Shown here: piece after piece, positions 9,629 through 28,483 of the stretch
How the letters are laid out: the number at the start of each line of letters is the position of its first letter
Position numbering within the stretch: the first letter of the stretch is position 1
From: a virus
DNA length: 28,796 nt
Reading direction: 5' to 3' (one strand)
Virus record (IMG/VR): IMGVR_UViG_3300029309_000249
Location: 1 to 28,796 of that record
Notes under the pieces: model-generated
Told to the model about the DNA's origin: nothing
Database searches by the model: none
The model's input: only the letters and a program-made list of their open reading frames with translations
Position numbers and translations under genes: made by a program

Positions 9629-11067
9629 TAATTTACTCCAGCTTGTTTTAAGGCTTCATCTTTTGGATTTAATGATATTCTAGTTTTTGTTGACGATTGC
9701 TGATTTTGACTGGGGTTGCTTGAAAAATCTGTAATTATAGTTGGAGGAATATCTCCCGCTTGCCTTATTTGTAAATCTAGCTCGGTAATTTTATTTAATC
9801 TAGCTCTCTGCTCACTTGCAATATCCACTAATCTTCTTCTAAGAATTTGCTCTATTTCATCATCAGATTTAAACACACCTTTAGGACCTTTGATTGCTGC
9901 TAAAAGTTGTTGTGCCATCAAAATATCTTGATCAGATAATCTGCCAGTTTGACCTAAGAAATCTCCTGGTGATGATCTTGCAATTTCTTCTAATATGTTT
10001 GCCGCAGCAATAACAGGAGTTTCTTTACCAGATACGTTTATAGCTGCTCCAAATCTAAATTTTATTTGATCTACTAATGCAGGTAAGCCTGTGACGTTTG
10101 CTTGATCAACTATATCTAACACATCAAATAATAATTTTTCAGTATTTGCACCTTTTTCAAAAGTACCAGCGGTATCTTGATATAAAAGACGTATTTCAGA
10201 TAATTTATTAGCGGTAATGCCTTCTTTTTGCAAACCTTTTGCAATTTCAAGTTGTAAAGCTAGTTCCTTAGCAGCTCTTTCTTCTGCAGCTTTTGCTGCT
10301 CCTTGTGCTAACCCTGGTCCAAATTGACCAGTTTCTACAAGAGATTGACCAACATTACGTAAAAAATCGTTAAATTGTGGGGTTGCAAAAAGAGAAGTAA
10401 CTGGCGATAGTTTTTTTGTAGTTTCTTGTTGTTGATCAGCCTGTGCACCTGCATCAGTAACTTGATCTTCTGCAGTTTCTTGCAAAGCCTCCTCTATTTG
10501 TTCGTTTGCTGCTTTTATTTCCTCTACTTTTAAATCATTAATATCATCTTGTAAAAGTGCAGCTTGATCAGCTAATTGCGTTGACTCATTAGCCTCATCC
10601 ATAGTTTTAACACCTATCCCAGAGTAAGTTAATGATTGAGGTATTTTGAGACCAAATGGCACTTTAGGTGTAACTAATTGAGTGTAAGGTGCCCCACCAC
10701 CTAAAGGAGTGACTGTTGGGCCTGGAGTCGCCCCCTTTCTATAAATGGGATTCAACAAATTTTTAAGTTTTTGTAATCTTTCGATATTGTCTTTTGCTTT
10801 CTTACCTTTTCTTGCTGTTTTAATACCTTTAATGCCTAATCCGAGTGGAGCTGCTACACCCGATATAGTTAATCCAGCTGATAAATAATCTAGAGGATCG
10901 GTTGGATCAAATAACGCTTCAGCTGATTCTTTTGCTTGTGCTGTTGTAATTTCATCTTCTAGTTGTGTAGATGTTTTGCCTCTAGGATCTATACCAAAAG
11001 CTAAAAATTCAGCAATAACTTCCTCATCAGTTATGTACGGTTGATTATCTAATAATTGTTCTGCCAT
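9628..11067 (-). CDS. Virion structural/internal protein (hypothetical)
   Basis: A 479-residue protein. The N-terminal part ends in an apolar stretch (LDYLSAGLTISGVAAPLGLG, about 58-77) and a basic patch (KTARKGKKAK). The middle is a Glu/Gln/Ala-rich likely coiled coil (about 165-215). The C-terminal half has SLVETGQFGPGLAQGAAKAAEERAA and repeated helical segments, a form common in podovirus internal proteins. No catalytic motif is seen. It lies between the 974- and 1085-residue proteins with gaps of 1 base and an overlap of 1 base, so co-expression in a fixed ratio is likely. Family unknown to me. Confidence 0.55.
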   Translation of the reverse strand: MAEQLLDNQPYITDEEVIAEFLAFGIDPRGKTSTQLEDEITTAQAKESAEALFDPTDPLDYLSAGLTISGVAAPLGLGIKGIKTARKGKKAKDNIERLQKLKNLLNPIYRKGATPGPTVTPLGGGAPYTQLVTPKVPFGLKIPQSLTYSGIGVKTMDEANESTQLADQAALLQDDINDLKVEEIKAANEQIEEALQETAEDQVTDAGAQADQQQETTKKLSPVTSLFATPQFNDFLRNVGQSLVETGQFGPGLAQGAAKAAEERAAKELALQLEIAKGLQKEGITANKLSEIRLLYQDTAGTFEKGANTEKLLFDVLDIVDQANVTGLPALVDQIKFRFGAAINVSGKETPVIAAANILEEIARSSPGDFLGQTGRLSDQDILMAQQLLAAIKGPKGVFKSDDEIEQILRRRLVDIASEQRARLNKITELDLQIRQAGDIPPTIITDFSSNPSQNQQSSTKTRISLNPKDEALKQAGVN

Positions 11068-11068
11068 T

Positions 11069-13993
11069 TTAACCTGTTTGTGTTCCTGGTGGTTTTAATG
11101 ATGTGTAAGCTCCAAAAGCTGCTCCTAATCCTAAAGCAGTTGGATCAGATGGCAATCTATACTGTGATTCTATACGTGTACGTCCTTGCTGGAACTGTGG
11201 TAAAAATTGTCCAATTTGTCCTAATGTTTGTAAAGGTCTTAACTGTTGTGCTGTTTGTTGTTCAAATAATCTACCTAAACCTGTCTCAGCAATACCCCTA
11301 CCAATACCGCCAAATCTAGCTAACTCACCTCTTTCACCTCTTCTTAAGGAATCTAAAGAAGAACCAATACCACCAATTTGTTGTCCAAATCCTGCTAAAG
11401 ACTGGCCTAATTGCTGTGCACCAGCTCCTCTTTGCTGACCTATACCTAATAAGCCACTTGCTAAATTTTGTCTTGCACCTGCACCAGCAGATCCAAATCC
11501 TAATAAACTTTGTGCTAATTGACGTTGTGCACCAAATTGATCGCCTGTAAACCCTCTTAAAGTGCTGCCAAGTTGTTGTTGTGCACCTAACTGTTGTTGT
11601 CCTGTTCTACCTAATAAATCTACGACTCCTTTCTCTGCAGCTAATCTTTGTTGTGCTCCTGAAGTCAATCTATCAAGCAAACCAGTCTCTGCACCAAATC
11701 TTGTGCCTGCTAACCCAGATAAACCTCTAGAAGCAGCTCTCTCAGCTTCTCTTTGTCTTGCAAACTCACTTAGTCCTATTCTTTGTGCTTCACCAAATCC
11801 TTGTTGTCTTATTCTACCTAATGACTCTGCTAAACCTTTTCCTAGAGCTTCTCTTCTCTCTGCAGCACTTAGTCTTGCTCTACTACCTCCAAATGCCCCA
11901 GCACCTATCTCACGTGCTCTAGCAGCCATATCTTGTTTTTCTCCTGCTTCGATTACGTCATCTATAGTTTGTTGCACAACGGCATCTTCAAATGGATTAT
12001 AAAACTGTTGTGTTAAACCTTGATCATATCCACCTAGAGTTCCTCTAATTAAATCTTCAGATTCACCTAATCTTTGACCAAACATATCGGTAGCACCAAC
12101 TGCTCCAGCTTCAATACCGCCCAAAGATTCACCAAATCTACCAGCCGCACCTTCACCTCTTGCCTCCACATCAGACAATCTTCTTCCAAATGCATCTGTT
12201 GCACCTATTTGTTGTCTACCAAGCCTGCCTAATGATCTACCAAATCTATCAGTAGCACCTATGGTAATGCCACGTGCTTGATCTATACCTCCTAACTGAT
12301 CTCCTAAACCAAGCAACATTTGTTGCTCTGCTCTCTGAAAATAAGGGTCTCTTAAAGCTTCAGCACGTCTAGATTGACCAATAGCTTGATCAACTAAATC
12401 TTTGTTTTGTTGAAAAAACGGTTCAAAACCACCAAGTCCAGCTACTGCTTGTTGCCTAGCTAATAACTCAAGAGGCGTTAAACCTGCAGTTTGTTGTAAC
12501 GGAACTTGACTACCAATTAAATTAGCTCCTGCTTGCTGTAGTTGATTTATAAATCCAGGTTGATCAGCGGTACCAAAATACAAAGCTCTTACTAAAGGAT
12601 CTGATAAATCTTCTACGGTATCTTGTTGTGCAAGCACAGGATCAACTGAACCTGCCACAGTCGCAGGTGTTGTTACAGCGGGGTCTGTCCCTACATCAGT
12701 CGCCACTGCAGCTGGCGTAGTAGGAACAGGGGAAACAGGGTCAACCACTGGGTCTGGTGTTGATACGGGCTCAACTATTGGATCTGGCGTTACGCCTCCA
12801 GAGCCAACAACAATATTACCCTGTTCATCAAATATTTCTGTAGGTCTAATGCCTGGACCAAAGCCAAAGTCTTGTGGTGGTATTAATCCACCGCCCATAC
12901 CAGGACCGTAATCTATACCGCCACCTCCAGGTACAATACCACCTACAATAGGACCTCTTGGCCTACTAGCTCTATCATCAAACGCATTGACAACTCTAGG
13001 TTCATTAGTGCCTGTTGGTACCAAATTACCGTCTAAATCTCTTAAGACAAAGGGCTCGCCATCTGTTGGTCCTCTTAAAAATCTTTCAGAATCATTAGAG
13101 GGTGGTTGCTCTATAGGTCGTAGTTCAGGAGGTAGGTCTGGTAATTGTGGTGGATTGACAGGCACTACACCAAATTGCCTATCTGTAAAATAATTACTAA
13201 TTCTAGTATTAGGGTCAATACCTCCTAACTGATCACCAGGCATGACAGGTGCTGGGATTGGGTCTGGGCCTATATCTGGTAGAGGTATTTGACGACCTCT
13301 TACTGGAAAAGCAGGTGAAGAAATAGTTACTGGACCAAACTCTGTGTCACGAGTTTCTATGTTCATGTTTGTTCTAGGGTCTGGTAAAACAGGTGGTGCC
13401 AGTGGGCTACGTAATTCTTGTATTGGATTTACTCTAGTTCTTGCAAAAGGATCATCAGCAGGTGGTTGTAAAGGTGTTAAAGAATCTGGTCCATAATTAA
13501 TACCACCGCCGCCAGGAACATTATTACCTATAGGTATACCTCTAGGTTTTAGAGCTCTATCATCAATTGGTAAATCTATATTTTGCAAGCTGTCGTCAAA
13601 TACTCCTCCAATAGGCGGTAGTGGTCTAGTAATTGGTTGTACTGGTATTGGTCGTGGACCGCCTTTTATAGGTAATAATTCTGATGGTACTCCAGCACCA
13701 GGAGAGGGTAGCTTATCAATAGGTGAAGGCACTGGCTGTCCTATGTTTATTGGATTAATTGCACCAATACCACCTATACCACCAATAGAAATAGGGGGAA
13801 TGGGTCTACCTCTTGGTGGTAAAATAGGGCCAGGAGGTAAGGGTAAATCTCTTGGTATAGGATTTATTGGTAAAATTGGCATATTAGGCGGAGGACTAAT
13901 TGGTAATTCTATTGGGCCAATAGGCTCTCTGTTACGAATATTTAAAGGATTGCCGCCCCTTACTCTTGATATTGCGTTTCTTAATAATCCCAT
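11069..13993 (-). CDS. Pro/Gly-rich and 18-residue-repeat virion protein
   Basis: A 974-residue protein of two contrasting halves. Residues 1 to about 460 are Pro/Gly/Ile-rich and look extended, with a duplicated block (DDRALKPRGIPIGNNVPGGG and DDRASRPRGPIVGGIVPGGG). The C-terminal half is Gln/Gly/Arg/Ala-rich, predicted helical, with two tracts of 18-residue repeats. Between the tracts lies YNPFEDAVVQQTIDDVIEAG followed by AGAFGGSRARL, a motif (FNP..VV...; GAFGGSR) I recall from tail or internal proteins of many podoviruses. I therefore take it for a tail/internal structural protein; an ejected fibrous protein is possible. No membrane spans or enzyme motifs are seen. Confidence 0.6.
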   Translation of the reverse strand: MGLLRNAISRVRGGNPLNIRNREPIGPIELPISPPPNMPILPINPIPRDLPLPPGPILPPRGRPIPPISIGGIGGIGAINPINIGQPVPSPIDKLPSPGAGVPSELLPIKGGPRPIPVQPITRPLPPIGGVFDDSLQNIDLPIDDRALKPRGIPIGNNVPGGGGINYGPDSLTPLQPPADDPFARTRVNPIQELRSPLAPPVLPDPRTNMNIETRDTEFGPVTISSPAFPVRGRQIPLPDIGPDPIPAPVMPGDQLGGIDPNTRISNYFTDRQFGVVPVNPPQLPDLPPELRPIEQPPSNDSERFLRGPTDGEPFVLRDLDGNLVPTGTNEPRVVNAFDDRASRPRGPIVGGIVPGGGGIDYGPGMGGGLIPPQDFGFGPGIRPTEIFDEQGNIVVGSGGVTPDPIVEPVSTPDPVVDPVSPVPTTPAAVATDVGTDPAVTTPATVAGSVDPVLAQQDTVEDLSDPLVRALYFGTADQPGFINQLQQAGANLIGSQVPLQQTAGLTPLELLARQQAVAGLGGFEPFFQQNKDLVDQAIGQSRRAEALRDPYFQRAEQQMLLGLGDQLGGIDQARGITIGATDRFGRSLGRLGRQQIGATDAFGRRLSDVEARGEGAAGRFGESLGGIEAGAVGATDMFGQRLGESEDLIRGTLGGYDQGLTQQFYNPFEDAVVQQTIDDVIEAGEKQDMAARAREIGAGAFGGSRARLSAAERREALGKGLAESLGRIRQQGFGEAQRIGLSEFARQREAERAASRGLSGLAGTRFGAETGLLDRLTSGAQQRLAAEKGVVDLLGRTGQQQLGAQQQLGSTLRGFTGDQFGAQRQLAQSLLGFGSAGAGARQNLASGLLGIGQQRGAGAQQLGQSLAGFGQQIGGIGSSLDSLRRGERGELARFGGIGRGIAETGLGRLFEQQTAQQLRPLQTLGQIGQFLPQFQQGRTRIESQYRLPSDPTALGLGAAFGAYTSLKPPGTQTG
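11375..11704 (-). repeat. Second tract of about 18-residue repeats
   Basis: Six consecutive units of 18, 18, 19, 18, 19 and 18 residues, for example QFGAQRQLAQSLLGFGSA and GAGAQQLGQSLAGFGQQI. The units share a small residue pair, then Gln-Leu, then Leu and Gly-Phe. They are degenerate at DNA level, so they are old or selected at protein level. Confidence 0.7.
12044..12259 (-). repeat. Four tandem 54-base units coding 18-residue repeats
   Basis: Exactly 216 bases encode four in-register units: GATDRFGRSLGRLGRQQI, GATDAFGRRLSDVEARGE, GAAGRFGESLGGIEAGAV and GATDMFGQRLGESEDLIR. The G-A-(T/A)-(D/G)-x-F-G-x-x-L core is constant and the second half of each unit varies. Confidence 0.85.
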
Positions 13994-17647: not shown

Positions 17648-18097
17648 TTACACCTCTGTCCAGTCTTGACCTATAAATAATAAAGCTTCTGCTTCTCTTC
17701 TTCTTACAAGTCCCTCTAATACTTTACCATTAGCTTTGTTCCATCTTTTTATTTGTTTTGGTACATCACTCCAATCTTTATGAGTGCTATTTAAAACTTT
17801 TAATAAAGTAGAATTTTTTAAATTTGTTGATCCTAAATTAAAAGTCCAAGAAACCAACGCATCAAACTCATTTTGATCCAAAGAAACTTCTACTAAATCA
17901 TTTACTGCTTGTTCAAATTTTTCCAAATCTTCTAAAAGCAACATGTCAGCTCTTTCTTGTGATATAGACATACCTTCACTTATACCATGAGTAGACCCAT
18001 AACCTATTGTCCACACGTTAGCAGCACATTTATAAGATTCTAACTTACAACCCTCAAACTTTTTTATTAAAGCTATGCCCTCTTGTGATATTTGCAT
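17648..18097 (-). CDS. GH24 endolysin (lysozyme)
   Basis: Muramidase that cleaves peptidoglycan at lysis. The 149-residue protein from ATG 18097 shows the Glu-8-Asp/Cys-5-Thr catalytic triad of P1/P21-type lysozymes: Glu15, Cys24 and Thr30 in KKFEGCKLESYKCAANVWT followed by IGYGSTHG. Cys at the middle position is a known natural variant. SWTFNLGSTNLKNSTLL and the C-terminal GLVRRREAEALLF are family blocks. There is no signal peptide or SAR segment, so it needs a holin, encoded immediately upstream. A GTG at 18154 would extend it into the holin gene and add a non-family tail, so ATG 18097, 4 bases after the holin stop, is chosen. Confidence 0.93.
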   Translation of the reverse strand: MQISQEGIALIKKFEGCKLESYKCAANVWTIGYGSTHGISEGMSISQERADMLLLEDLEKFEQAVNDLVEVSLDQNEFDALVSWTFNLGSTNLKNSTLLKVLNSTHKDWSDVPKQIKRWNKANGKVLEGLVRRREAEALLFIGQDWTEV

Positions 18098-18101
18098 GTT
18101 T

Positions 18102-18578
18102 TTACTCTTTATCGGGCGAGTGAGATGCTCCGAAATAAAACGAAATAATTGCACTAGCTAATCCTCCAAGATAACCAAGAACTAAATTAATCAAAGCTTC
18201 ACTGTTTTGTTCTGGTGGTTGCAAGGTAACTAAAAATATGTAACCTAAAAATCCAGCTATAGTAGCTATACCTATAATTCTAGCTGTCCAGTCTTTACTG
18301 AACATACTTCTAGCATTTTGTTTATCAGCAACCTCTAACTCAAAAACATCTACATCAAGCTCCTTCATTTGCACTTCAAAAGCTTGTTCAGCTTTTTTTA
18401 ATTCTAACATTTGTTCTGGTGTTGCGTTTTGTATTGCGGTCTCTATCGATTTTTGGTCATTAGGCACACCTAATACGTCTGCAATCATATTGGCAGCCAT
18501 TCCTCCCATAGGACCGCCTATAGCAGTTCCTAAGGTAGGTGCTACTGCTCCGACTATGTTTTTAAATAAAGATTTCAT
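18102..18578 (-). CDS. Holin of the GTA_holin_3TM type
   Basis: A 158-residue membrane protein. The N-terminus (VAPTLGTAIGGPMGGMAANM) is the Gly/Pro/Ala-rich segment typical of the family first named from gene transfer agent release. A charged helical middle (about 40-95) follows, then two clear spans at about 101-119 (IIGIATIAGFLGYIFLVTL) and 128-150 (ALINLVLGYLGGLASAIISF). It should permeabilise the inner membrane and let the lysozyme out. It overlaps the 71-residue gene by 4 bases and precedes the lysozyme by 4 bases, an arrangement that supports the lysis role. Confidence 0.8.
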   Translation of the reverse strand: MKSLFKNIVGAVAPTLGTAIGGPMGGMAANMIADVLGVPNDQKSIETAIQNATPEQMLELKKAEQAFEVQMKELDVDVFELEVADKQNARSMFSKDWTARIIGIATIAGFLGYIFLVTLQPPEQNSEALINLVLGYLGGLASAIISFYFGASHSPDKE

Positions 18579-18790
18579 ATAATAATACTCGTTAATACAG
18601 CTATACCAATTGCACCCAAAAAGCCAAACACTCCAAAAGTAGCTGCCTTCATAGTTGAATTTATATAGATTATTTCTTCTTTAATATCAGAAAACTCATT
18701 AAATGCAGTCTTCCAACGCTCATGTGATATGGTTTCTAGCTTTGTAAGTCTCTCTGCAACATCATTTACTGTCATTTTTTTATTAACCAT
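18575..18790 (-). CDS. Small coiled-coil plus single-span membrane protein, XhlA-like
   Basis: A 71-residue protein: helical, charged N-terminus (TVNDVAERLTKLETISHERW ... FNEFSDIKEEI) and one C-terminal span at about 49-71 (AATFGVFGFLGAIGIAVLTS...). This layout matches haemolysin XhlA-like holin partners and some spanin-like proteins. With the holin directly downstream it probably tunes lysis. It overlaps the adenylate cyclase gene by 8 bases and has no clear Shine-Dalgarno, so translation is probably coupled. A second ATG at 18775 is an alternative start. Confidence 0.62.
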   Translation of the reverse strand: MVNKKMTVNDVAERLTKLETISHERWKTAFNEFSDIKEEIIYINSTMKAATFGVFGFLGAIGIAVLTSIII

Positions 18791-20543
18791 CTTGTAACGT
18801 ATATATTTTAATTGGCTTTTCTTTGCCTTTTACAAAAATACTATCAAGTTCTTTAAGCATTATTTGCTCACTAAAGTTACTTGCACTAATGGTATCATAA
18901 CCTATTACAATATCTTCTCCAACTTCCTTTGTAGAGCTTTCTAATCTAGCTGCTAAGTTAACTGCATCTCCTATAGCAGAATAATCAAACCTAGTATCAC
19001 TACCCATGTTGCCTACCACAGCATATCCTGTATTAATACCTACTCCTATCTCTACATCTAAATTAGCCATTTTTACTTTATCTTGTATTTCTTTAGCACA
19101 CAAAACTGCAGCTGTTTCATGATCGTACACGTCAACAGGAGCATTAAATATAGCCATCATAGCGTCACCTATGTACTTATCTACCATACCGTCATAATAT
19201 TTAACGGTATCTGCTTGTATTGTAAGGACTTTGTTCATAATTTCTGTTACTTGTTCTGGTTCTAACTTTTCTGATAATGCAGTAAAACCTCTTACATCAC
19301 TGAAGAGAAACGTGCAATATCTACGTTCGCCACCTAATATCAAAGAACTAGGATCATCTTGTAGTTTTTTTACTTGTCTTGGATCTAAATAATGCTCAAA
19401 TTGTTTTTTTATTTGTTGTCTCAGCTTGTATTGCTGCCTAAATCTAAGGTAAAAGGCTATAGATCCTGAAATAAATTCAGATATTAACGTCCAGGATACA
19501 TCTATTAATAATCCCTTTTGTATTAAAAAGTAGCCTGTCAAAGAAGTAATTATCATTAAAACCGTAGCAATAGTTATACCCCAAGTAATACCTAATATGT
19601 GTAAAGCAAACCAAACTAATGAAACAAAAATAACTAACGAAAAAATTTCAACTGCAAGGGCGTAGTCAGGTATATAGGGACTATCTTGTATTAATATTGA
19701 TTCTGCTAGTGCAACTTGTATTTTATGTGGTTCTAACAAACCTACAGGTGTGGCTACTTGTGGCATGACACCATTAGCAGTCACACCTACAAATACAAAC
19801 TTACCTGCAACATTCATTTCAGATAGTGTTGTTTGTGGTGTGTCTACCCAACTAATCCACTTACGACCAAGGCTGTCTGTTTTGACTGGTGGTATACCTC
19901 TGATTGATATTTCTTCTATACCATTATCATTAGTTTTTATAATGTATGTTTTTACACCAAATAAAGCTTTATATATTTGTGTACCAAAACTAGGTATCCA
20001 TTCGTTGTTAGGTGTTTTTACTAATAAAGGTATTCTACGTACTAATTGATCTATATCTGTGGGAGCAACGGCCAACCCTTGAAGTGTGTGATTGGATAGT
20101 AGAGTAAGGTTTTCCTTCACTCCCGTTGAAATTATACCACCTTTATCGTTACCTAGCACAACGGTTCCTGGAGATGTAGGATACTTTCCTTGACCGTTTT
20201 CAAACATACCTATGACTGACGGAGCGTATTGCAAAGAGTCTGCAAAAACTTTATCTCCACCCATACGGTCAGCTTGTGGAAAAGACATAACCCATCCAAC
20301 GCCTACAGCACCTTTTCTAAGCAAATTAATTTGTATTTCTGCAAGCCTTTGTCTTGGTAAGGGATAACCACCCTCTTTTTCAACATCTTCTTCTGTTATA
20401 TTTAATATTACAAAATTACCTGATGGTTTGGGTGTTTTTATAAAAGTGTCATACACCTTTAACTTTATAATCTCTGTGGGGGTGCTTTGAAACAAAACAG
20501 GCATGCACAGTATTATAAGTATTGGTAATAATAGTCGTTTCAT
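18783..20543 (-). CDS. CHASE2-domain transmembrane adenylate cyclase (class III)
   Basis: Predicted to convert ATP to cAMP in response to an extracytoplasmic cue. The 586 residues show an N-terminal membrane anchor (4-18), a periplasmic CHASE2 sensor (about 25-290, with KVYDTFIKTPKPSGNFVILN and LPRQRLAEI), three spans (about 294-316, 320-342 and 345-367), a short helical linker, and a class III cyclase domain (about 405-586). Catalytic residues appear complete: metal-binding Asp416 (FSDVRGFT) and Asp460 (YIGDAMM), ATP-selecting Lys456 with Ser522, and transition-state Asn529 and Arg533 (VNLAARLE). ATG directly follows the FecR gene stop, so translation is coupled. Such cyclases are common in bacteria beside FecR-domain genes; in a phage lysis region this is exceptional. 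Confidence 0.93.
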   Translation of the reverse strand: MKRLLLPILIILCMPVLFQSTPTEIIKLKVYDTFIKTPKPSGNFVILNITEEDVEKEGGYPLPRQRLAEIQINLLRKGAVGVGWVMSFPQADRMGGDKVFADSLQYAPSVIGMFENGQGKYPTSPGTVVLGNDKGGIISTGVKENLTLLSNHTLQGLAVAPTDIDQLVRRIPLLVKTPNNEWIPSFGTQIYKALFGVKTYIIKTNDNGIEEISIRGIPPVKTDSLGRKWISWVDTPQTTLSEMNVAGKFVFVGVTANGVMPQVATPVGLLEPHKIQVALAESILIQDSPYIPDYALAVEIFSLVIFVSLVWFALHILGITWGITIATVLMIITSLTGYFLIQKGLLIDVSWTLISEFISGSIAFYLRFRQQYKLRQQIKKQFEHYLDPRQVKKLQDDPSSLILGGERRYCTFLFSDVRGFTALSEKLEPEQVTEIMNKVLTIQADTVKYYDGMVDKYIGDAMMAIFNAPVDVYDHETAAVLCAKEIQDKVKMANLDVEIGVGINTGYAVVGNMGSDTRFDYSAIGDAVNLAARLESSTKEVGEDIVIGYDTISASNFSEQIMLKELDSIFVKGKEKPIKIYTLQDG

Positions 20544-21662
20544 TTAATTACTTTGAGTGATAGTTATTACGTTATCGCTACCACCATTTATTTTGATTGT
20601 GTTTGAAACACCATCTTGTATAAGAATTACTGTGTAGGCAGTTCCTCCATCTAAGTCTAGCCTTACACTTTCACTCACTTTTCTACGCATACTAAGTACA
20701 CCACCACTTATTATAGTTGTAATCTGTGTTTCTTCATCTTGCCCAAAGTTTGTACCAGAAATTCTTGTAACACTTGTTGGTGCTAACTGTTCTTCATCTT
20801 CATCTACCGCTAATGCATCAACTACTTGTAATAAATCTTCTAAATAGTTTACATCTAAATAATTAATATCCAGTTCAGTAAACTCTAAATTATCTTCTTT
20901 TAAATAATCTTCTGCAAGATAATCAACATCAAGATCATTAAAATCTAAAACGCCATCTGTTTGTGTGCTTGTGGTTTCTTCTTCTGCAACCACCTCTTCT
21001 TTTGGTGGTGTCACAATAAGCATGTTGTCAATAAGATCTAATGTTAAATCTAATATTACAGGTTTGGTTGGAGCAGACTCAAATACACTTACTGTGGTAG
21101 CTTCATACGGTTTATTTAACAAAACAGTGCCCATAGCAGTAACCACCTCTATTTCGCCACTAGAGAGCCCTAAAGCGTCTGGTAGAAGTATTATGAGACT
21201 ACGTCCCAATTCGTCAACTGTAGCCGTAAAGTCAGTCCCACGTATTGCTATGTTTGCTGTTGGGGTTTTTAAAGTAATGTTTTGTTTGTCAATACGGTTT
21301 AGATTGCCTGTAATAAACCTAGCAGTGCCAAGTCCAAAGGTAAGTGCCATTTTAGACTTGCTTGGATCAGGGTCGTAAATGTATTCATCAATCAGTAATT
21401 GACTATGCTCTGTAAGTTTTACAGTTGATTCATCAAGAAAAGTAATGGCCATACGACCATTTTGCGTTATGGCTTCATCATTACTTTGTATTGCAAACTT
21501 TAAATTTGCATCATAGGGTTTGTCTCTTAATATCTGAGCCGCACCGTTTAGTTCGGAAATATCTCCTATATCAACAGCTTGTGCTTGTACCTTGGTCGTT
21601 TTGAATGACGCAAACAGTAGAAGCAGCGGTACCAGATATAGATATAATTTTGAGCCAATCAT
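20544..21662 (-). CDS. Exported FecR-domain protein with acidic repeats and curlin-like tail
   Basis: A 372-residue secreted protein. Signal peptide 1-29 (LYLYLVPLLLLFASF, cleavage near VQAQA). The FecR domain spans about 60-195, with the hallmark LKTPTANIAIRGTDF (131-145). Residues 239-282 are an acidic Leu/Asp/Tyr repeat (LDVDYLAEDYL, LDINYLDVNYL). The C-terminus (about 297-372) is strand-rich and ends with IQDGVSN, INGGSDN and ITQSN, resembling the Q-x-G-x-x-N pattern of curlin repeats. It is exported, so it is not a cytoplasmic anti-sigma factor; FecR domains in such proteins are thought to bind partners or cell-wall ligands. Its ATG lies 92 bases inside the curlin-like gene. A pairing with the CHASE2 sensor encoded next is inferred. 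Confidence 0.8.
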   Translation of the reverse strand: MIGSKLYLYLVPLLLLFASFKTTKVQAQAVDIGDISELNGAAQILRDKPYDANLKFAIQSNDEAITQNGRMAITFLDESTVKLTEHSQLLIDEYIYDPDPSKSKMALTFGLGTARFITGNLNRIDKQNITLKTPTANIAIRGTDFTATVDELGRSLIILLPDALGLSSGEIEVVTAMGTVLLNKPYEATTVSVFESAPTKPVILDLTLDLIDNMLIVTPPKEEVVAEEETTSTQTDGVLDFNDLDVDYLAEDYLKEDNLEFTELDINYLDVNYLEDLLQVVDALAVDEDEEQLAPTSVTRISGTNFGQDEETQITTIISGGVLSMRRKVSESVRLDLDGGTAYTVILIQDGVSNTIKINGGSDNVITITQSN

Positions 21663-22299
21663 TATCTTGGGTGCTTAGTTGTGAAATATTAAATGTTCTT
21701 GAGCCACCTGTGTGATCAAGATAAAAATATCCACCTGCACTAGCTGTTACTCCAGTTCCAGTATATGTAACATTATTATCTGAACCATCAATATCCATAT
21801 AGTTAGTAGCACCATCTATATTTATAGTAGAGTTTATAGTGTTATTAGAACCCTGGATAATCCAATCAAGGTCAAGTTGTGATGCTAAAGCAGTAGTTCC
21901 TTGGTTTAAGGTAAAGGTGTTACCACTACCTGTGACATCAACATTTTGATTACTACCATCTGCACTATATGTATCTGTTGGATCTACTTGTATAGTAAAA
22001 GAATTTGTACCGCCATCAAACTCGTAAAAGCCTGTAAAGTTATCTGCAAAAATATCACCTAAAAACTTATTGGTTGCACCAATCATATTAATATCTAGTG
22101 TCATACTATTACCGTCTAAATCAAACGGGGTTAGATTACCAGCAGTGCTGTTTAAACCGCCGATAATATTTGATATACCAAGCTGTTCTAAGTCTATATT
22201 TGCACTTGTACCAGATTGATCTACATATATTTCGTTATCAGCCCCGTATGTTGTCAACGCAGTTAGCATCACAATCAGGCTCATTAATTTTAATTTCAT
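21571..22299 (-). CDS. Secreted curlin-like (CsgA/CsgB-type) repeat protein
   Basis: About 242 residues. Signal peptide ends near TTYGA. The mature part is Asn/Gly/Asp/Thr-rich with spaced curlin-like motifs: IYVDQSGTSANIDLEQLGISN, LDINMIGATN, VDVTGSGNTFTLNQG, WIIQGSNNTINSTINIDGAT, YMDIDGSDNNVTY, FNISQLSTQDN. The Q/D-x-G-x-x-N spacing and alternating hydrophobics predict a beta-solenoid amyloid like curli subunits. It differs from E. coli CsgA by irregular unit lengths and a C-terminal Cys pair (CVIQNDQGTSTSC). Position after csgF and csgG makes it the likely secretion substrate. ATG 22299 and 22302 are both possible, with GGAG about nine bases upstream. It overlaps CsgG by 62-65 bases and the FecR gene by 92. 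Confidence 0.75.
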   Translation of the reverse strand: MKLKLMSLIVMLTALTTYGADNEIYVDQSGTSANIDLEQLGISNIIGGLNSTAGNLTPFDLDGNSMTLDINMIGATNKFLGDIFADNFTGFYEFDGGTNSFTIQVDPTDTYSADGSNQNVDVTGSGNTFTLNQGTTALASQLDLDWIIQGSNNTINSTINIDGATNYMDIDGSDNNVTYTGTGVTASAGGYFYLDHTGGSRTFNISQLSTQDNDWLKIISISGTAASTVCVIQNDQGTSTSC

Positions 22300-23137
22300 C
22301 ATTAGATTCTACTCCTTGGTTATGATTTTGTAAAATCCAGAAACCACGTTCATAACCAGTATTTATGATTTCTAGTACACCTCCTTCTATAGCTTTCATT
22401 AAAGCTATGGTTGATGACTCATTTCTTGCGTTACCTAGTTCTATTTCAACTAACTCACTTTCAGCCTCAACAAACCTAAATACGTCTTCTGATCTACCGT
22501 AACTAAATATAGTTTTTTGGCTTAGCACCTCTAGTAAAACCTCTCCTGTAGCAACAGACACCATACGCAAGCTAACTGTAATATTATCTTCTCTATACAT
22601 TACGCTTTTGCCAATACCAAGATATCTAGCTCCAGAACCACCACTTTCTAAATTTGCTTCATAAGAAATAACTGCACCTTCCATAAGTATGCCTGCAAAA
22701 AGTAAAGGTCTTAATGCTTTCTTTTTTTCTTCTTCATTAGCAGATTGTTCTCTAGCACTACGTATTAGTTGCCTTTCTTTGGTTAAATTATCTAGTCCTA
22801 CTCTCTCAACCACTCTAAAAAATTTACCGTCCCCTGCATGTTTTAATGCTCTAATAAGCAGTGCGTTTGGTTGTTGTGTAATAGCTGTAGAAAATAAGGC
22901 AAATTCACTATTGCTTTTTCTTTGTCCCGTTTGATCTGTAAAAGCTGTGGGATATACAGCTACAACGGGACTGACTTTTGGTAAAGGTGCGTTTTTAAGT
23001 TCAGTAGACTGTAAATCTTTTATAGAGACAATATCTTTAGAAAACCTTTGTGCTTGTGTATCTTCAAACTGATCTAGCGTAGAACAACTAGAAAGTAAAA
23101 GTACCAATAGGTATAACGATTTCGGTAACTGTACCAT
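22238..23137 (-). CDS. csgG: CsgG curli secretion channel lipoprotein
   Basis: Outer-membrane lipoprotein that forms the nonameric curli export pore. The 299 residues start with a lipoprotein signal peptide ending in lipobox LSSC (Cys18). Family blocks match E. coli CsgG from memory: VVAVYPTAFTDQTGQ, FSTAITQQPNALLIRALK, RVVERVGLDNLTKERQLIRS, ILMEGAVISYEANLESGG, GARYLGIGKS, RMVSVATGEVL, and the C-terminal YERGFWILQN. The channel-constriction region reads SNSEFALFST where E. coli has Tyr51, Asn55 and Phe56; Phe is kept while the Asn position appears to be Leu. The C-terminal tail adds a Cys pair (DCDANC). The signal peptide is coded within the last 50 bases of csgF. Assignment is firm; use by the phage is unknown. 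Confidence 0.93.
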   Translation of the reverse strand: MVQLPKSLYLLVLLLSSCSTLDQFEDTQAQRFSKDIVSIKDLQSTELKNAPLPKVSPVVAVYPTAFTDQTGQRKSNSEFALFSTAITQQPNALLIRALKHAGDGKFFRVVERVGLDNLTKERQLIRSAREQSANEEEKKKALRPLLFAGILMEGAVISYEANLESGGSGARYLGIGKSVMYREDNITVSLRMVSVATGEVLLEVLSQKTIFSYGRSEDVFRFVEAESELVEIELGNARNESSTIALMKAIEGGVLEIINTGYERGFWILQNHNQGVESNDEIKINEPDCDANCVDNIRG

Positions 23138-23573
23138 CTGCCTCAGTAATTTTAAGGGTTAATGTTATACCATCACTTGTATACTCAATTGTATTGCCTT
23201 CTAAAGTGATGACACCTTCGCTCTGCGGTGTTTCTCCGAATAAGTTATTAACTAACTGTCTTGATAATTCTGCGTAAACTCTAGATTCTAAGTTACGCAT
23301 AAATCGTGCAAGAGTAGAATTTTCTTTTTCTCTCTTGATTTCATCTTGTAAAGCTTTTATTTCTTCTTTTATTGTAAGTTTACGGGTATATTCTTGATTT
23401 TCTATAGTCAAATAATGACTGGAAGTTCCTATGCCACTAAAACTAGGTGACTTAAATTTGTGTGTAATAGTATCTGCCCAAAGAGGGTTTGTTAAAATTA
23501 CAAGAAAGAAAAATATTAAGAGCAGTCCTGCAATTCTATATACCCAAATACTATCAGTCTTTTCTTTGGTCAT
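23088..23573 (-). CDS. csgF: CsgF-like curli assembly factor
   Basis: Periplasmic/surface factor that plugs and extends the CsgG pore in curli systems. From ATG 23573 it has 161 residues: a signal peptide with an 18-residue apolar core (cleavage near LWA-DT), then KFKSPSFSGIGTSSHYL, which matches the CsgF N-terminal NPSFGG...L motif that inserts into CsgG; a helical region (about 60-115, ending SRQLVNNLFGE); and a strand-rich C-terminus with the family's DGITLTLKITEADGTVTEI. An in-frame TTG at 23591 is a weaker start. It overlaps the upstream gene by 20 bases and csgG by 50. Adjacent csgG makes the call much stronger than the sequence alone. Confidence 0.85.
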   Translation of the reverse strand: MTKEKTDSIWVYRIAGLLLIFFFLVILTNPLWADTITHKFKSPSFSGIGTSSHYLTIENQEYTRKLTIKEEIKALQDEIKREKENSTLARFMRNLESRVYAELSRQLVNNLFGETPQSEGVITLEGNTIEYTSDGITLTLKITEADGTVTEIVIPIGTFTF

Positions 23574-23904
23574 CTCTGTCTGCCTTTGCAATTTTATTAC
23601 TGTTTATTAGTTGTGGTACGCCTAATATTGTTTTTATTAAAGTATCTTGTCTAATAATTTCATTATCTAAACTACGCACCCTATCTATTAATGCTACCAA
23701 AATACCATGTTGAGAATCAAGTTTTGTACCTAATCTTTCTTCTATAGCACTAATTTGTTGTGCAACCTTTTCATCAACAATATCTAATTTTTGCTCCATA
23801 CCATCAACAATACGAATGACTAACTTGTATATAAACCAACCTAGACCTATTGCAGCTGCTATGGGAAATCCGACCTCTTGTATGACAGTAACGGCTGATT
23901 CCAT
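23554..23904 (-). CDS. Single-span membrane protein with coiled coil, holin-like
   Basis: A 116-residue protein: a short polar N-terminus, one span at about 11-32 (GFPIAAAIGLGWFIYKLVI), then a long charged coiled coil (about 36-95) and a basic tail. The N-terminus ESAVTVIQEVGFPIAAAIGL resembles small phage proteins of the BhlA/YvrJ holin-like kind, but it lacks a second span. It lies between the thermonuclease and csgF with a 1-base overlap (TAATG) and a 20-base overlap. A role in lysis or in the envelope module is inferred from position. Confidence 0.62.
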   Translation of the reverse strand: MESAVTVIQEVGFPIAAAIGLGWFIYKLVIRIVDGMEQKLDIVDEKVAQQISAIEERLGTKLDSQHGILVALIDRVRSLDNEIIRQDTLIKTILGVPQLINSNKIAKADRDDQRKD

Positions 23905-24608: not shown

Positions 24609-24887
24609 TTACTTCTCCTGTTCTTCTTCTTGCTTTGAGTCTTGTAACTCATTAGTTTGTTCATCAACTTGTTCTACCACGTTGTCAACAATACCTTCGG
24701 TCGAATCTGCAACAGTTTCAACTACTGAGGCTACATCTTCTAAAGCAGATGTTGTTATATTACCTGCTGTTTGTACAGTGGAATCAATAACGCTAGTGGT
24801 TAAATCTTTACCGCCATCTATAACAGCACCTACAGTTGCACATGAAGCTAAAAATAAAGCTCCAATGATTATTACTATTTCCTTCAT
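24609..24887 (-). CDS. Small outer-membrane-type lipoprotein
   Basis: A 92-residue protein with a lipoprotein signal peptide: short charged start, apolar core, and lipobox LASC with Cys16. The mature part is Thr/Val/Asp-rich, probably one long helix, ending in a Glu/Gln/Lys tail. Residue 17 is Ala, so no Asp inner-membrane retention signal; outer-membrane sorting is likely. It could be an o-spanin-like lysis protein or an envelope modifier; no inner-membrane spanin partner is clearly recognised. A strong AAGGAG precedes the start. Confidence 0.75.
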   Translation of the reverse strand: MKEIVIIIGALFLASCATVGAVIDGGKDLTTSVIDSTVQTAGNITTSALEDVASVVETVADSTEGIVDNVVEQVDEQTNELQDSKQEEEQEK

Positions 24888-25513: not shown

Positions 25514-27718
25514 TTAGCTTTCTAAAGCTGTTATTCTTGCCTCTAGTTCTTGTATTGTTTTTACTAATAGTGGAACTAATTTACTTTGGTCTATACCTTG
25601 CATCTCTGCACCATCCTTTTCACCTGTTACGGATTCTGGAACTATGCTTGAAACTTCGTGAGCTAAGAAACCATCTAAAGTTGTATCTTTATCAGCTTTA
25701 AAATTAAATCTAGCTGGTTTTAATTGTTTTAATCTTGATGTTGCATCCCAAGTGTAATTTACATTTTCTTTCAATCTGTAGTCAGAGGATGTGTTAAAAG
25801 CTGTTGAAGATGCGTTTGTGGTAATAGAACCAACTACTCCGTTATCATTATAGAAGGTCATACAAGTTCTTGTATCTACAAGTCCATCAGCACCAACTGC
25901 AATACCTCTAATACTTGAGCTTAATTCAACAACTTGTCTATGGTCTCCAATATTTACTGGGTTTCCAGAGGTAGTACCAAGTAATAATTTACCATTATTA
26001 TCTATTTCCATAACCTGAGATAATGTGACTCCTGCTCCTGCACTTCCAGATGTTTGTGAATACCAAATATGTTCTCCAGCCTCTTGTCTGTAAGCACTTG
26101 ATTGATTAGTCTCAATATTTGCAAAAGAACCTGTATCAGTATCAACATACATATTATCTGTAAGAAAAGTACCATCAAGACCATGAACTCCTGTAGCATT
26201 TTCACTTATTACTGAACCTTTTTGACCTATAAAAAGTTGTGTCCAACCAGTATGTGTATCAGAAGGTGGATTAGTTCCCATACCTATTGACCCATTGCTA
26301 GCTATTCGCATCCTTTCTGCATCATTTGTACTAAATCTTAAAGGTATGGCATCAGCAGTACCAAGGAACATAACTGAAGCTGATATACCCATAAATCCAT
26401 CTTTATCAGTATCAGTTTCATGTACTAATACTAAAGGCTGAGTACCAGCTACATTAATACCACTAGCAGAACCAAAAGCACCAGCATTAAATGATGTAGC
26501 ACCAACAAGCAAATTACCAGCACTTGTAATTCTTACTTTTTCTGCACCTGCTGGATAGAAACCTATATCGTTACCAATATTCCCAATTTCTGCTTCACCA
26601 TTATTATCTTTAAAAGATGCTACAGCTATTGAGTCTGAACTTTCAAATCTAGCAACTAAATTTGATGTGCCTGAATTTACATGAAGCTTTTGAGCAGGAC
26701 CACTTGTACCAATACCAACATTACCTGATTCTAGAATAGTCATTAAAGCATTACTTGTGTCAACAGCAGTTTGATTATGTCCTATTACAAATACTTGGTC
26801 TGTTGCACTATTATTTGAATCTATATTAATTCTTAAAGAATTAGGCGTATTAATAGATAAGTTATTACTTGTATTTGTTTGTATGTTACCTGCTGCAATG
26901 GTCATATCATTTATTGCACTTGTTACAGTTATGCCTCCAACGGCTGTACTTAAAACTGTTGAGCCTAAATGTTTTAAGGCAACAGTTCCACCATCGCCAC
27001 CATCTGTACAAGTTAAATAATCAAAACCATCTGAATCTTGCAATTGTAAATTAGTACCTCTTACTAAAAGACTACCTGTTCCACCTTCTTGTATTCTTGA
27101 ATTTGAGCCATCGTGATAAATTTGTAAATCATCACTAGCACCAAATTTAGCTTTGGCATTATCAGCAAATTCTAAACAATCATCTGATTTATCCCAGACA
27201 AGGTTATTAGATGCACCAGTAAAAGTAACATCATCACTAAATGTTGTTGTGCTACTCACACTTAAAACAGAAACAGTTGTTGTGCCTGCTAAGTTTAAAT
27301 CAGTAAAGGCATCAACTATGGCTGCACCAGAACCAGCACCGTCTGAGTAAACAGCTTTTACATCACCAGCAGGTATGGTTACATTAGCACCACTACCTTG
27401 GGAAATAATTATGTTTTGTGATCCGCTAGTACCGTTTTCTATAAACCAAAGTTTAGATACGGTGTTTGGACCTATAGTAATCGTACAAGCTGAATCAAGT
27501 GTGCCTGTATATTTTAAATATAGTGATCTACCAGGATCAGTAGAACCGTCTGCTATTGTAGTAGTATGTGTGTCAGCGTTTGTTGTTATTGCTTCTGTTC
27601 CAAAGCTAAAAGCCTCTGCAATAAGTTCTAAATTTGTGTTTGTAGATGTTCCCCAGGTTCCTGACTCATCACCTGTCGCTATCTCTTTTAACCTTAAATC
27701 ATTTACATAAGTTGCCAT
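25514..27718 (-). CDS. Tail fibre with C-terminal S74 chaperone domain
   Basis: A 734-residue host-recognition fibre. The N-terminus (ATYVNDLRLKEIATGDESGT, then WGTSTNTNLELIAEAF) is the common virion-attachment start. The body is a Ser/Thr/Gly/Ala-rich beta region with motifs such as AKFGASDDLQIYHDGSNSRI, GNVGIGTSGPAQKLHV and NDAERMRIASNGSIGMGT, typical of trimeric beta-helical fibres. The C-terminal intramolecular chaperone (about 640-734) has SSDYRLKENV with Ser645 and Lys650 of the autocleavage dyad, then FLAHEV and a coiled coil QSKLVPLLVKTIQELEARIT. The chaperone should drive trimer folding and then be cleaved off. Confidence 0.92.
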   Translation of the reverse strand: MATYVNDLRLKEIATGDESGTWGTSTNTNLELIAEAFSFGTEAITTNADTHTTTIADGSTDPGRSLYLKYTGTLDSACTITIGPNTVSKLWFIENGTSGSQNIIISQGSGANVTIPAGDVKAVYSDGAGSGAAIVDAFTDLNLAGTTTVSVLSVSSTTTFSDDVTFTGASNNLVWDKSDDCLEFADNAKAKFGASDDLQIYHDGSNSRIQEGGTGSLLVRGTNLQLQDSDGFDYLTCTDGGDGGTVALKHLGSTVLSTAVGGITVTSAINDMTIAAGNIQTNTSNNLSINTPNSLRINIDSNNSATDQVFVIGHNQTAVDTSNALMTILESGNVGIGTSGPAQKLHVNSGTSNLVARFESSDSIAVASFKDNNGEAEIGNIGNDIGFYPAGAEKVRITSAGNLLVGATSFNAGAFGSASGINVAGTQPLVLVHETDTDKDGFMGISASVMFLGTADAIPLRFSTNDAERMRIASNGSIGMGTNPPSDTHTGWTQLFIGQKGSVISENATGVHGLDGTFLTDNMYVDTDTGSFANIETNQSSAYRQEAGEHIWYSQTSGSAGAGVTLSQVMEIDNNGKLLLGTTSGNPVNIGDHRQVVELSSSIRGIAVGADGLVDTRTCMTFYNDNGVVGSITTNASSTAFNTSSDYRLKENVNYTWDATSRLKQLKPARFNFKADKDTTLDGFLAHEVSSIVPESVTGEKDGAEMQGIDQSKLVPLLVKTIQELEARITALES

Positions 27719-27721
27719 ATT

Positions 27722-28483
27722 CTATGCTACCTCTTCCCAATTAGGAGTTTGTGTTTCATTAATTTCAGCAAAGGATGAACTTTGGTCAGTATTTATATTA
27801 GCATAATTTTTTGTTTGTGTATCATCTATTAGCGACCAAACCAATACACTACCTACAGATCCAACTGCCTCAACTCCTGTAGGTATAACATTTGCCTTTG
27901 AAATTACGGTAGGACTACCAACAGATCCTGTAGCAGACTGGCCCGTAATCTGAACTGTCATGCCTAAGGCTATAGAGATCGTACCTAATGCACTTGTACC
28001 CACAACTCCAGATGGTGAAACATTTGCCTTACCAGTAAGTGTTACAGTTCCTACAGATCCAGTAGCTGATACTCCAGATGGGCTTACATTTGCTTTTGCT
28101 ATTGTTGTAACGCTGCCTACGGCAGATGTGGCTGAAACTCCTGTTAGAGTAGCAACAGCGTTGTGATGAATAATTACAGAGCCAACGCTACCTGTGGCAC
28201 TTAGTCCTGCAACAGGAACATTTGCCTCTCCATCTACATCTACTGTAACCCCACCTACTGTTGCAACAGCAGTTGGTAAGACCGCTACTGCATCACCATT
28301 AACACCAACACCAGATACTGATGCTGTTGCGGATTGTCCAGATGGTATTACATTAGCTTTCGCTACGATAGAAACAGAACCAACAGCACTTGTTGCTGCT
28401 AATCCTGTAAGAGTAACTGGTATTGGTTCGCCCCAAGGACCCTCATCCCAGGCACCTCGACCCCAACCAGTAATATTAGCCAT
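27722..28483 (-). CDS. Repeat-rich structural protein beside the tail fibre
   Basis: A 253-residue protein. After MANITGWGRGAWDEGPWGEP come about nine repeats of 21-23 residues (25-217), then a conserved C-terminus (SLIDDTQTKNYANINTDQSS, ending ETQTPNWEEVA). The Gly/Trp-rich start and the C-terminus are features I recall from marine phage tail-region proteins. Repeats of V/T/S/A/G suggest a beta-stacked spike or fibre, perhaps a virion decoration protein. No enzymatic motif is present. It is separated from the fibre gene by three bases. Confidence 0.65.
   Translation of the reverse strand: MANITGWGRGAWDEGPWGEPIPVTLTGLAATSAVGSVSIVAKANVIPSGQSATASVSGVGVNGDAVAVLPTAVATVGGVTVDVDGEANVPVAGLSATGSVGSVIIHHNAVATLTGVSATSAVGSVTTIAKANVSPSGVSATGSVGTVTLTGKANVSPSGVVGTSALGTISIALGMTVQITGQSATGSVGSPTVISKANVIPTGVEAVGSVGSVLVWSLIDDTQTKNYANINTDQSSSFAEINETQTPNWEEVA
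27833..28411 (-). repeat. About nine degenerate 63-69-base coding repeats
   Basis: The units follow the pattern (S/T)G(V/L/Q)SATGSVGSV...AKANV(S/I)P. Adjacent central units (SGVSATGSVGTVTLTGKANV and TGVSATSAVGSVTTIAKANV) are the most alike, suggesting recent duplication there. Confidence 0.8.

Follow-up and report, generated by a model that had tools for sequence, protein, structure and literature searches.

A probable curli export block with FecR and adenylate cyclase genes in a marine podovirus lineage

Gene content and phage setting

The DNA analysed here (the window; 28,796 nt) is the entire IMG/VR virus record IMGVR_UViG_3300029309_000249, and its minus strand carries a curli set that spans about 17648-23904(-), reaching beyond the interval 21571-23573 given in a preliminary description. 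From upstream to downstream, the set encodes a small membrane coiled-coil protein, a CsgF homologue, a CsgG homologue and a predicted curlin-like secreted subunit in single copy, followed on the same strand by a FecR-domain protein, a CHASE2-adenylate cyclase, holin-like proteins and a lysozyme, with gene ends that mostly overlap. The block is a compact, functional-looking version of the apparatus by which bacteria export adhesive curli fibres. Its phage surroundings, as first described, were confirmed: the window is a whole virus record, and a chimeric assembly is ruled out because identical junctions recur across many contigs from other samples. A scan of the window for promoters and terminators returned matches no more frequent than chance, and searches for tRNAs and against Rfam found none.

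The five-gene order proposed for survey in viral contigs was held in the window group wherever a contig was long enough (CsgF, 68/68; curlin, 73/73; FecR, 68/68; cyclase, 42/42), and the order CsgF-CsgG-curlin-FecR-cyclase was also held in the HTVC008M and Melnitz groups, with one exception in 16 for the cyclase. Purifying selection acts on every gene of the module (dN/dS 0.06-0.14; CsgF, 0.14; CsgG, 0.08; curlin-like subunit, 0.07; cyclase, 0.12), and the holin and lysozyme genes gave similar values. The endolysin, a phage lysozyme (17648..18154), matches PF00959 at E 1.7e-47. The putative holin (18102..18578) has a C-terminal TM hairpin and resembles the protein annotated 'Holin of 3TMs' in phage DSL-LC04 (27% over 89 aa, E 3e-4) as well as phrog_1544 (5e-28), a family of unknown function, and the small protein encoded at 18575..18790, with one C-terminal TM segment and no significant family, is a putative holin-like or accessory lysis product whose gene precedes the lysozyme.

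Exporter, subunit, FecR tail and cyclase

The CsgF-like factor and the full-length, lipobox-bearing CsgG of the preliminary description both stood up to profile searches. CsgF (23088-23573(-)), which has a signal peptide, matches PF10614 with E 3.3e-14 and 53.6 bits (cut-off, 25.8), and CsgG (22238-23137(-)), a predicted outer-membrane secretion pore lipoprotein, matches PF03783 with E 1.5e-45 and 155.5 bits (cut-off, 20.8), carries a lipobox (..LLLSSC), and aligns both to E. coli CsgG along its length (phmmer, 8e-49) and to PDB CsgG. The best match of the phage CsgF to PDB CsgF, weak at E 0.29, covers the N-terminal stretch (residues 24-56); in E. coli, the N-terminal stretch of CsgF inserts into CsgG. 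Pfam matches of the tested operon proteins included no CsgE, CsgB or CsgC, which narrows but does not void type VIII membership, since we took CsgG, CsgF and subunits as its core; CsgE, CsgC and CsgD are likewise missing from phage modules and from Alphaproteobacteria, according to PMC9599517. A phage-specific CsgG constriction was rejected, as the tyrosine/asparagine/phenylalanine set of E. coli is likewise unconserved in cellular alphaproteobacterial CsgG, and a match to OR851715 ('Salmonella phage') was set aside as an unverified 1.5-kb contig that probably holds host csgG.

The third gene (21571-22302(-)) had been described as encoding a signal-peptide protein with curlin-like Q-x-G-x-x-N repeats. 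The signal peptide is present, but the strict motif occurs only once (0.13 expected) and is not repeated; the actual repeat is G-x-x-N-x-[ILV], found 7 times against 0.78 expected, a count reached by 0 of 2000 shuffles. Of 65 aligned relatives, 47 match PF07012 (best, 2.5e-9), whereas the window protein scores 13.1 bits, under the cut-off of 20.7; judged by sequence, the gene is curlin-like at family level only. AlphaFold2 (AF2) predicted an all-beta structure (pLDDT 84, pTM 0.81), for which a PDB fold search, with beta-helix folds numerous among its leading matches, found nothing significant (best E 0.14).

The FecR protein (20544..21662) consists of a signal peptide, a FecR domain (PF04773, E 9e-10) whose AF2 fold matches PDB 4m0h and 6ovk, a disordered linker, and a separate C-terminal beta domain (approximately residues 315-370, pLDDT 82-85) with strands spaced about 21 residues apart. 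This last domain is of curlin type: the motif occurs at the FecR C-terminus in 36 of 37 lineages (1.7 expected from shuffles) and in 0-1 cases in other non-curlin families, and hhalign matched the tail to the C-terminus of curlin-2 at 83% (E 8.8e-6), and none of nine control profiles exceeded 0.7%. We lean on these two results because an HMM of the curlin C-terminus, which gave 15 FecR matches (E up to 1), also gave 9 on reversed CsgF. The window protein has its fold in common with anti-sigma regulators of the FecI/FecR type but not their cytoplasmic anti-sigma domain and inner-membrane helix, as only a signal-peptide-like segment lies N-terminal to the FecR domain. Unlike the phage protein, cellular FecR homologues are mostly long, and the curlin tail was found in 0 of the 7 complete ORFs compared, this number being small because most cellular frames ended at the edge of the fetched stretch. 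The literature searched, including the available part of PMC9599517, makes no mention of a curlin-type tail on phage FecR.

The gene that follows (18783..20543) encodes a predicted class III adenylate cyclase with a CHASE2 domain (PF05226, E 2.7e-25; PF00211, E 1.7e-20), in which the catalytic motifs FSDVRGF, KYIGD and DYSAIGDAVNLAAR are intact, those for metal and adenine binding included. These profile matches bear out the earlier placement of a FecR gene and a cyclase gene in a phage late operon.

The small membrane partner and relatives of the module

At the upstream end of the block, 23554..23904(-) encodes a 116-aa protein that joins the core of family 'up1' to the C-terminal tail of family 'up2' and has one weak TM segment. 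A gene at this place is labelled 'histidine kinase' in PMC9599517, and from its position we infer that the 116-aa gene is the one meant. This identity is ruled out: a Pfam search of the protein found no kinase domain, members of the family at this position are small (about 90-130 aa), and 14 of 34 are free of histidine. Nor is it a common holin unrelated to curli, because its relatives among the 50,697 phage records of INPHARED are confined to T8SS phages, although a holin-like action inside the module is conceivable. Contigs collected blind by the partner gene carried T8SS genes in 76 of 80 cases, and in the other four the stretch ended no more than about 1.2 kb from the partner gene. Matches to YvrJ were weak (best, 0.012) and were not counted as evidence. 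The 116-aa product is a small coiled-coil protein of the membrane, and its gene accompanies the curli module; the literature searched does not give this identity for the 'histidine kinase' gene.

The supposition that a set including a subunit, a FecR protein and a cyclase had not been described proved wrong: the CsgF-CsgG-curlin-FecR-cyclase set was reported from SAR11 podo- and myophages in 2022 (PMC9599517), following partial accounts (PMC7029224, PMC9004378), and is present in HTVC008M and MZ577097. These publications on marine phages date from 2020-2022. The module is thus not new as a kind, and the window is another podovirus lineage carrying it, with a structural protein that matches HTVC023P at 33% and DSL-LC04 at 41%. 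The pelagiphage T8SS module of HTVC023P-type podoviruses and pelagimyophages, as presented in PMC9599517, has the order 'HK', CsgF, CsgG, CsgA/B, FecR, cyclase in common with the window; it differs in an optional second curlin between FecR and cyclase, which the window is without, and in its 'HK' label, the window gene there not being a kinase, and the window block stands directly before holin-like genes and a lysozyme. Module and order are also those of the Pelagibacter phage HTVC008M (KC465899; CsgG 49% identical) and the Methylophilales phage Melnitz (MZ577097; CsgG 43% identical), which, unlike the window, are myoviruses with a second curlin gene and two small membrane genes.

In cellular curli operons (Alphaproteobacteria, Enterobacteria), CsgG, CsgF and curlin repeat proteins adjoin as they do in the window, but the alphaproteobacterial loci had neither FecR (0/7) nor the small membrane partner (0/7), and a cyclase-domain gene lay about 3 kb off in one of the seven. 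Conversely, a CHASE2 and/or cyclase homologue was found within about 6 kb at 7 of 20 alphaproteobacterial FecR loci, and at cellular locus L398 a full-length cyclase homologue lies immediately downstream of FecR. On this small comparison (7 curli loci, 20 FecR loci), phages appear to combine two cellular modules and to add a curlin tail to FecR, because cellular curli loci are without FecR while cellular FecR often neighbours CHASE2/cyclase; this contrast was not found in the literature searched.

Possible functions of the block

We consider it probable that the block forms a curli-like exporter and that the state of its fibre is reported to the cyclase via FecR. The channel proposed in the preliminary description, through which an amyloid-like protein would cross the outer membrane, is compatible with the evidence. 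CsgG capped by CsgF would form this pore in the outer membrane of the host late in infection and export the curlin-like subunit, which would assemble into a fibre on or near the cell. Rather than regulating a sigma factor, FecR would place its FecR domain and linker in the periplasm, its curlin-type C-terminal domain would attach to the curlin chain, cap it or anchor it, and the protein would act on the CHASE2 domain of the cyclase in the inner membrane to signal the state of secretion or of the fibre as cAMP, a contact suggested by genetic linkage. The tail could in this way tie the fibre to a cAMP signalling enzyme that the module itself encodes, and the small coiled-coil protein upstream would be a dedicated inner-membrane partner. 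We conjecture, as others have before, that the phage most likely benefits by holding progeny and neighbouring hosts together, or by blocking rivals, around lysis; release, superinfection exclusion and clumping are purposes already hypothesized in the literature, which, as searched, reports no secretion or amyloid assay for any phage version, and clumping was not seen in Melnitz-infected cells (PMC9004378).

CsgG, with or without CsgF, might instead serve as a bare, fibre-free pore for lysis timing or uptake, as put forward for Melnitz (PMC9004378), a role suited to the position of the block immediately upstream of the lysozyme in 37/37 window relatives and to the M15 endopeptidase that adjoins it on the opposite strand at 3 loci of another group. 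However, essentially every locus has a curlin-like gene, which is under strong purifying selection, and the GenBank annotation of Melnitz includes two curlin-repeat genes, against the text of PMC9004378. An endolysin of the window type, the only type searched, is absent downstream in HTVC008M and Melnitz and from their groups generally (0/15 and 0/4), and CsgG is unlikely to be the lysis pore of the window phage because the block is directly followed by holin-like genes and a lysozyme of the phage's own. The CsgG pore also sits in the outer, not the inner, membrane, and we regard a bare pore as improbable.

It is similarly unlikely that FecR, the cyclase and the small membrane gene are a conventional regulatory set that activates the curli genes, the tail being incidental. 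FecR proteins do act as signalling proteins of iron uptake systems. Curli are under cAMP control in enteric bacteria (cited in PMC9599517), and that paper suggests a regulatory role for the set. Yet the window genes examined included neither a sigma factor nor a CRP-like gene, the small membrane gene is not a kinase, the curlin-resembling tail is kept across lineages, and cellular FecR domains are mostly N-terminal parts of long proteins, not short regulators. The single subunit gene of the window, with its degenerate repeat, would also be compatible with a soluble or surface-bound blocker of the phage receptor (superinfection exclusion) instead of a fibre, which we think very unlikely, as many relatives in other groups have a second curlin gene that is strongly repetitive, and the curlin-like family reaches PF07012 at the E-value given above.

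If the exporter is indeed read by the cyclase, phages may have fused two separate cellular modules, curli secretion and a FecR-CHASE2 cyclase sensor, by adding a curlin cap to FecR. The circuit would then be closed, the fibre once exported informing the infected cell of its own state, and the small coiled-coil proteins would be a new phage-specific secretion component; we advance this larger reading only tentatively. In published accounts, the curli genes of phages make up a complete exporter of fibres to which regulators have been added, or they supply no more than a bare pore. The FecR tail is conserved across distant phages and was missing from the cellular C-termini compared; it points to fibre and cyclase being physically linked and renders the role of FecR directly testable. 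Re-reading the 'histidine kinase' as a small membrane protein dedicated to the module disposes of a misleading account of regulation. Marine viruses carry the module widely, and known SAR11 hosts are without it (PMC9599517); what it does therefore bears on how phages alter the surface of very abundant bacteria.

The curli operon and its phage background

Nine genes, most with overlapping ends, follow one another without gaps on the minus strand from 23904 to 17648 and encode, in order, a small membrane coiled-coil protein, CsgF, CsgG, a curlin-like protein, FecR, a CHASE2-adenylate cyclase, two small membrane (holin-like) proteins and a lysozyme. CsgF and CsgG, as named in the preliminary description, both pass their Pfam cut-offs, as do FecR, CHASE2, cyclase and lysozyme, and the cyclase retains its catalytic motifs. 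The FecR signal peptide is coded inside the final 92 bases of the curlin-like gene (21571-21662, minus strand), an unusually long overlap.

The window is a complete IMG/VR virus record (28,796 bases). Its structural protein (622 aa) shares 41% identity with the DSL-LC04 protein and 33% with its counterpart in Pelagibacter phage HTVC023P, so the phage is podovirus-type and some way removed from both. In DSL-LC04, the same structural protein stands in a row with an endopeptidase and an annotated holin, and no curli block is present, an arrangement that looks like the module-free site. In three loci of another viral group (L239, L245, L246), the module has close by, on the opposite strand, a gene for an M15 endopeptidase that shares 68% identity with the one in DSL-LC04. 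Chimeric assembly was ruled out, since the same junctions recur in many contigs from other samples. Elsewhere on the minus strand, between nuclease and tail genes, lies a gene for a small lipoprotein (24609-24887; lipobox FLASC and a long helical acidic tail) that several relatives retain and that may be either a spanin of the outer membrane or a surface lipoprotein; a protein built of 'SATxSVGSV'-like repeat units (27722-28483, also minus strand) adjoins the tail-fibre gene (25514-27718).

The curlin-like protein and the FecR tail

The curlin-like protein is recognized through its family: 47 of 65 relatives match PF07012 (best 2.5e-9), whereas its own score of 13.1 bits falls below the 20.7 cut-off. 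The Q-x-G-x-x-N repeat first ascribed to it occurs only once in strict form; what recurs instead is G-x-x-N-x-[ILV] (7 versus 0.78 expected). AlphaFold2 predicts an all-beta fold (pLDDT 84, pTM 0.81) with no significant match among solved structures.

FecR carries a curlin-type C-terminus. A [hydrophobic]-x-[hydrophobic]-x-Q motif at most four residues from the end is present in 36 of 37 lineages of phage-module FecR proteins at most 70% identical (1.7 expected from shuffled tails), the window tail reading ..YTVILIQDGVSNTIKINGGSDNVITITQSN. The same motif ends 38/43 and 25/31 members of the two curlin families, one each in CsgF, CsgG, cyclase and structural protein, and none in the other families. 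AlphaFold2 models a signal peptide, a FecR domain (residues 33-191, pLDDT mostly about 90 or more) that matches the FecR-type PDB proteins 4m0h and 6ovk and, beyond a disordered acidic linker (~213-300), a distinct beta domain (315-370, pLDDT 82-85), whose strands repeat at 21-22-residue intervals; curlin repeats have a similar spacing. In profile comparisons, the C-terminal 80 residues matched the C-termini of curlin-2 (83%, E 8.8e-6) and curlin (52%, E 1.5e-4), compared with at most 0.7% (E >=0.08) for nine control profiles. Our literature search returned no paper joining a FecR domain with curlin, or FecR with curli and CHASE2.

Conservation and a dedicated membrane partner

Among CsgG-seeded viral contigs, with each gene scored only where the contig was long enough, CsgF, curlin, FecR and cyclase are near-constant in all four groups: 68/68, 73/73, 68/68 and 42/42 in the window's group, 76/76, 59/59, 39/39 and 15/16 in the HTVC008M group, 30/30, 22/22, 15/15 and 8/8 in the Melnitz group, and 46/48, 47/47, 42/42 and 34/34 in a distant group. 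The small membrane gene is found in 49/49 contigs of the window's group, and small genes in 55/55 of the HTVC008M group and 23/43 of the distant group; lysozyme lies downstream in 37/37 of the window's group, and a lysozyme of this type in 0/15 of the HTVC008M group. The module therefore occurs in several phage backgrounds, and lysozyme linkage characterizes the window's group rather than the module itself. Median pairwise dN/dS is 0.06-0.14 for module genes; the holin-like gene stands at 0.08 and the lysozyme (4 pairs) at 0.16.

The gene upstream of csgF (23554-23904, minus strand) is, we take from its position, the one called 'histidine kinase' in PMC9599517. Alignments of its two families (34 and 21 members) show a single short hydrophobic segment followed by an apparent coiled coil; a Pfam search of both found no kinase domain, and histidine is wholly absent from 14/34 and 10/21 members. 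The window's lone copy has the core of one family and the C-terminal tail of the other. The only INPHARED relatives are in phages that have curli genes, namely HTVC008M (two records) and the four Melnitz records. A viral scan seeded solely with this family returned 80 contigs, 76 of which carry curli-module genes; in the remaining four the gene lies within ~1.2 kb of the stretch end. This gene, which can face the same way as the module or the other way, is thus its dedicated partner, and its product might, at a guess, be an inner-membrane anchor or gate.

Precedents, origin and function

Genes csgF and csgG are known from pelagimyophages (PMC7029224) and from Melnitz, for which csgA/csgB were stated to be missing and a pinholin-like role was proposed (PMC9004378); contrary to that text, the Melnitz record (MZ577097) annotates two curlin-repeat proteins along with FecR (8731-11525), as well as a cyclase, in the operon. 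PMC9599517 (2022) documents podo- and myophages of SAR11 that have the full set, 'histidine kinase'-CsgF-CsgG-CsgA/B-FecR-(second curlin)-cyclase; it suggests an alphaproteobacterial origin and reports expression in metatranscriptomes. HTVC008M likewise carries the full set, and with these precedents the initial view that it was undescribed falls. A 1.5-kb unverified 'Salmonella phage' record coding for a CsgG (OR851715) is probably host DNA.

Seven alphaproteobacterial curli loci contain csgF and csgG, with curlins nearby in six, a cyclase-domain gene ~3 kb away in one and FecR in none. Conversely, none of the 20 alphaproteobacterial stretches that match FecR best holds curli genes, but in seven a homologue of CHASE2 and/or cyclase lies within ~6 kb; in one (L398, 6503-11448), FecR directly precedes a gene homologous to the phage CHASE2-cyclase over its full length (E 3.6e-134). 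Many cellular FecR frames are long, and none of the seven complete ones ends in the curlin motif. The simplest reading of this small sample would be a union of two cellular modules in phages, FecR gaining a curlin tail. A genome-contig scan revealed no close relatives outside phages, as matches above 40% identity lay only on small metagenome-bin contigs, mostly in phage gene order.

A secretion module is the best-supported reading, drawing on homology, gene order, selection, the FecR tail and the partner gene: CsgG/CsgF would form a pore exporting the curlin-like substrate, while FecR, as periplasmic anchor or sensor, would engage curlin through its tail and signal to the CHASE2 cyclase. The constant retention of the subunit gene, together with the window phage's own lysis genes, makes a bare lysis pore less likely, and a plain regulatory role for FecR leaves its tail unexplained. 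Hypotheses published for the benefit to the phage are sibling capture, exclusion of rivals and uptake; no clumping of infected cells was observed in the Melnitz study (PMC9004378).

The preliminary description thus correctly read a real phage module of a kind already described, here in a further phage lineage. To this we add that FecR bears a curlin tail, that the 'histidine kinase' is reassigned, that the module's position before lysozyme is constant in the window's group and that cellular loci suggest a two-module origin.
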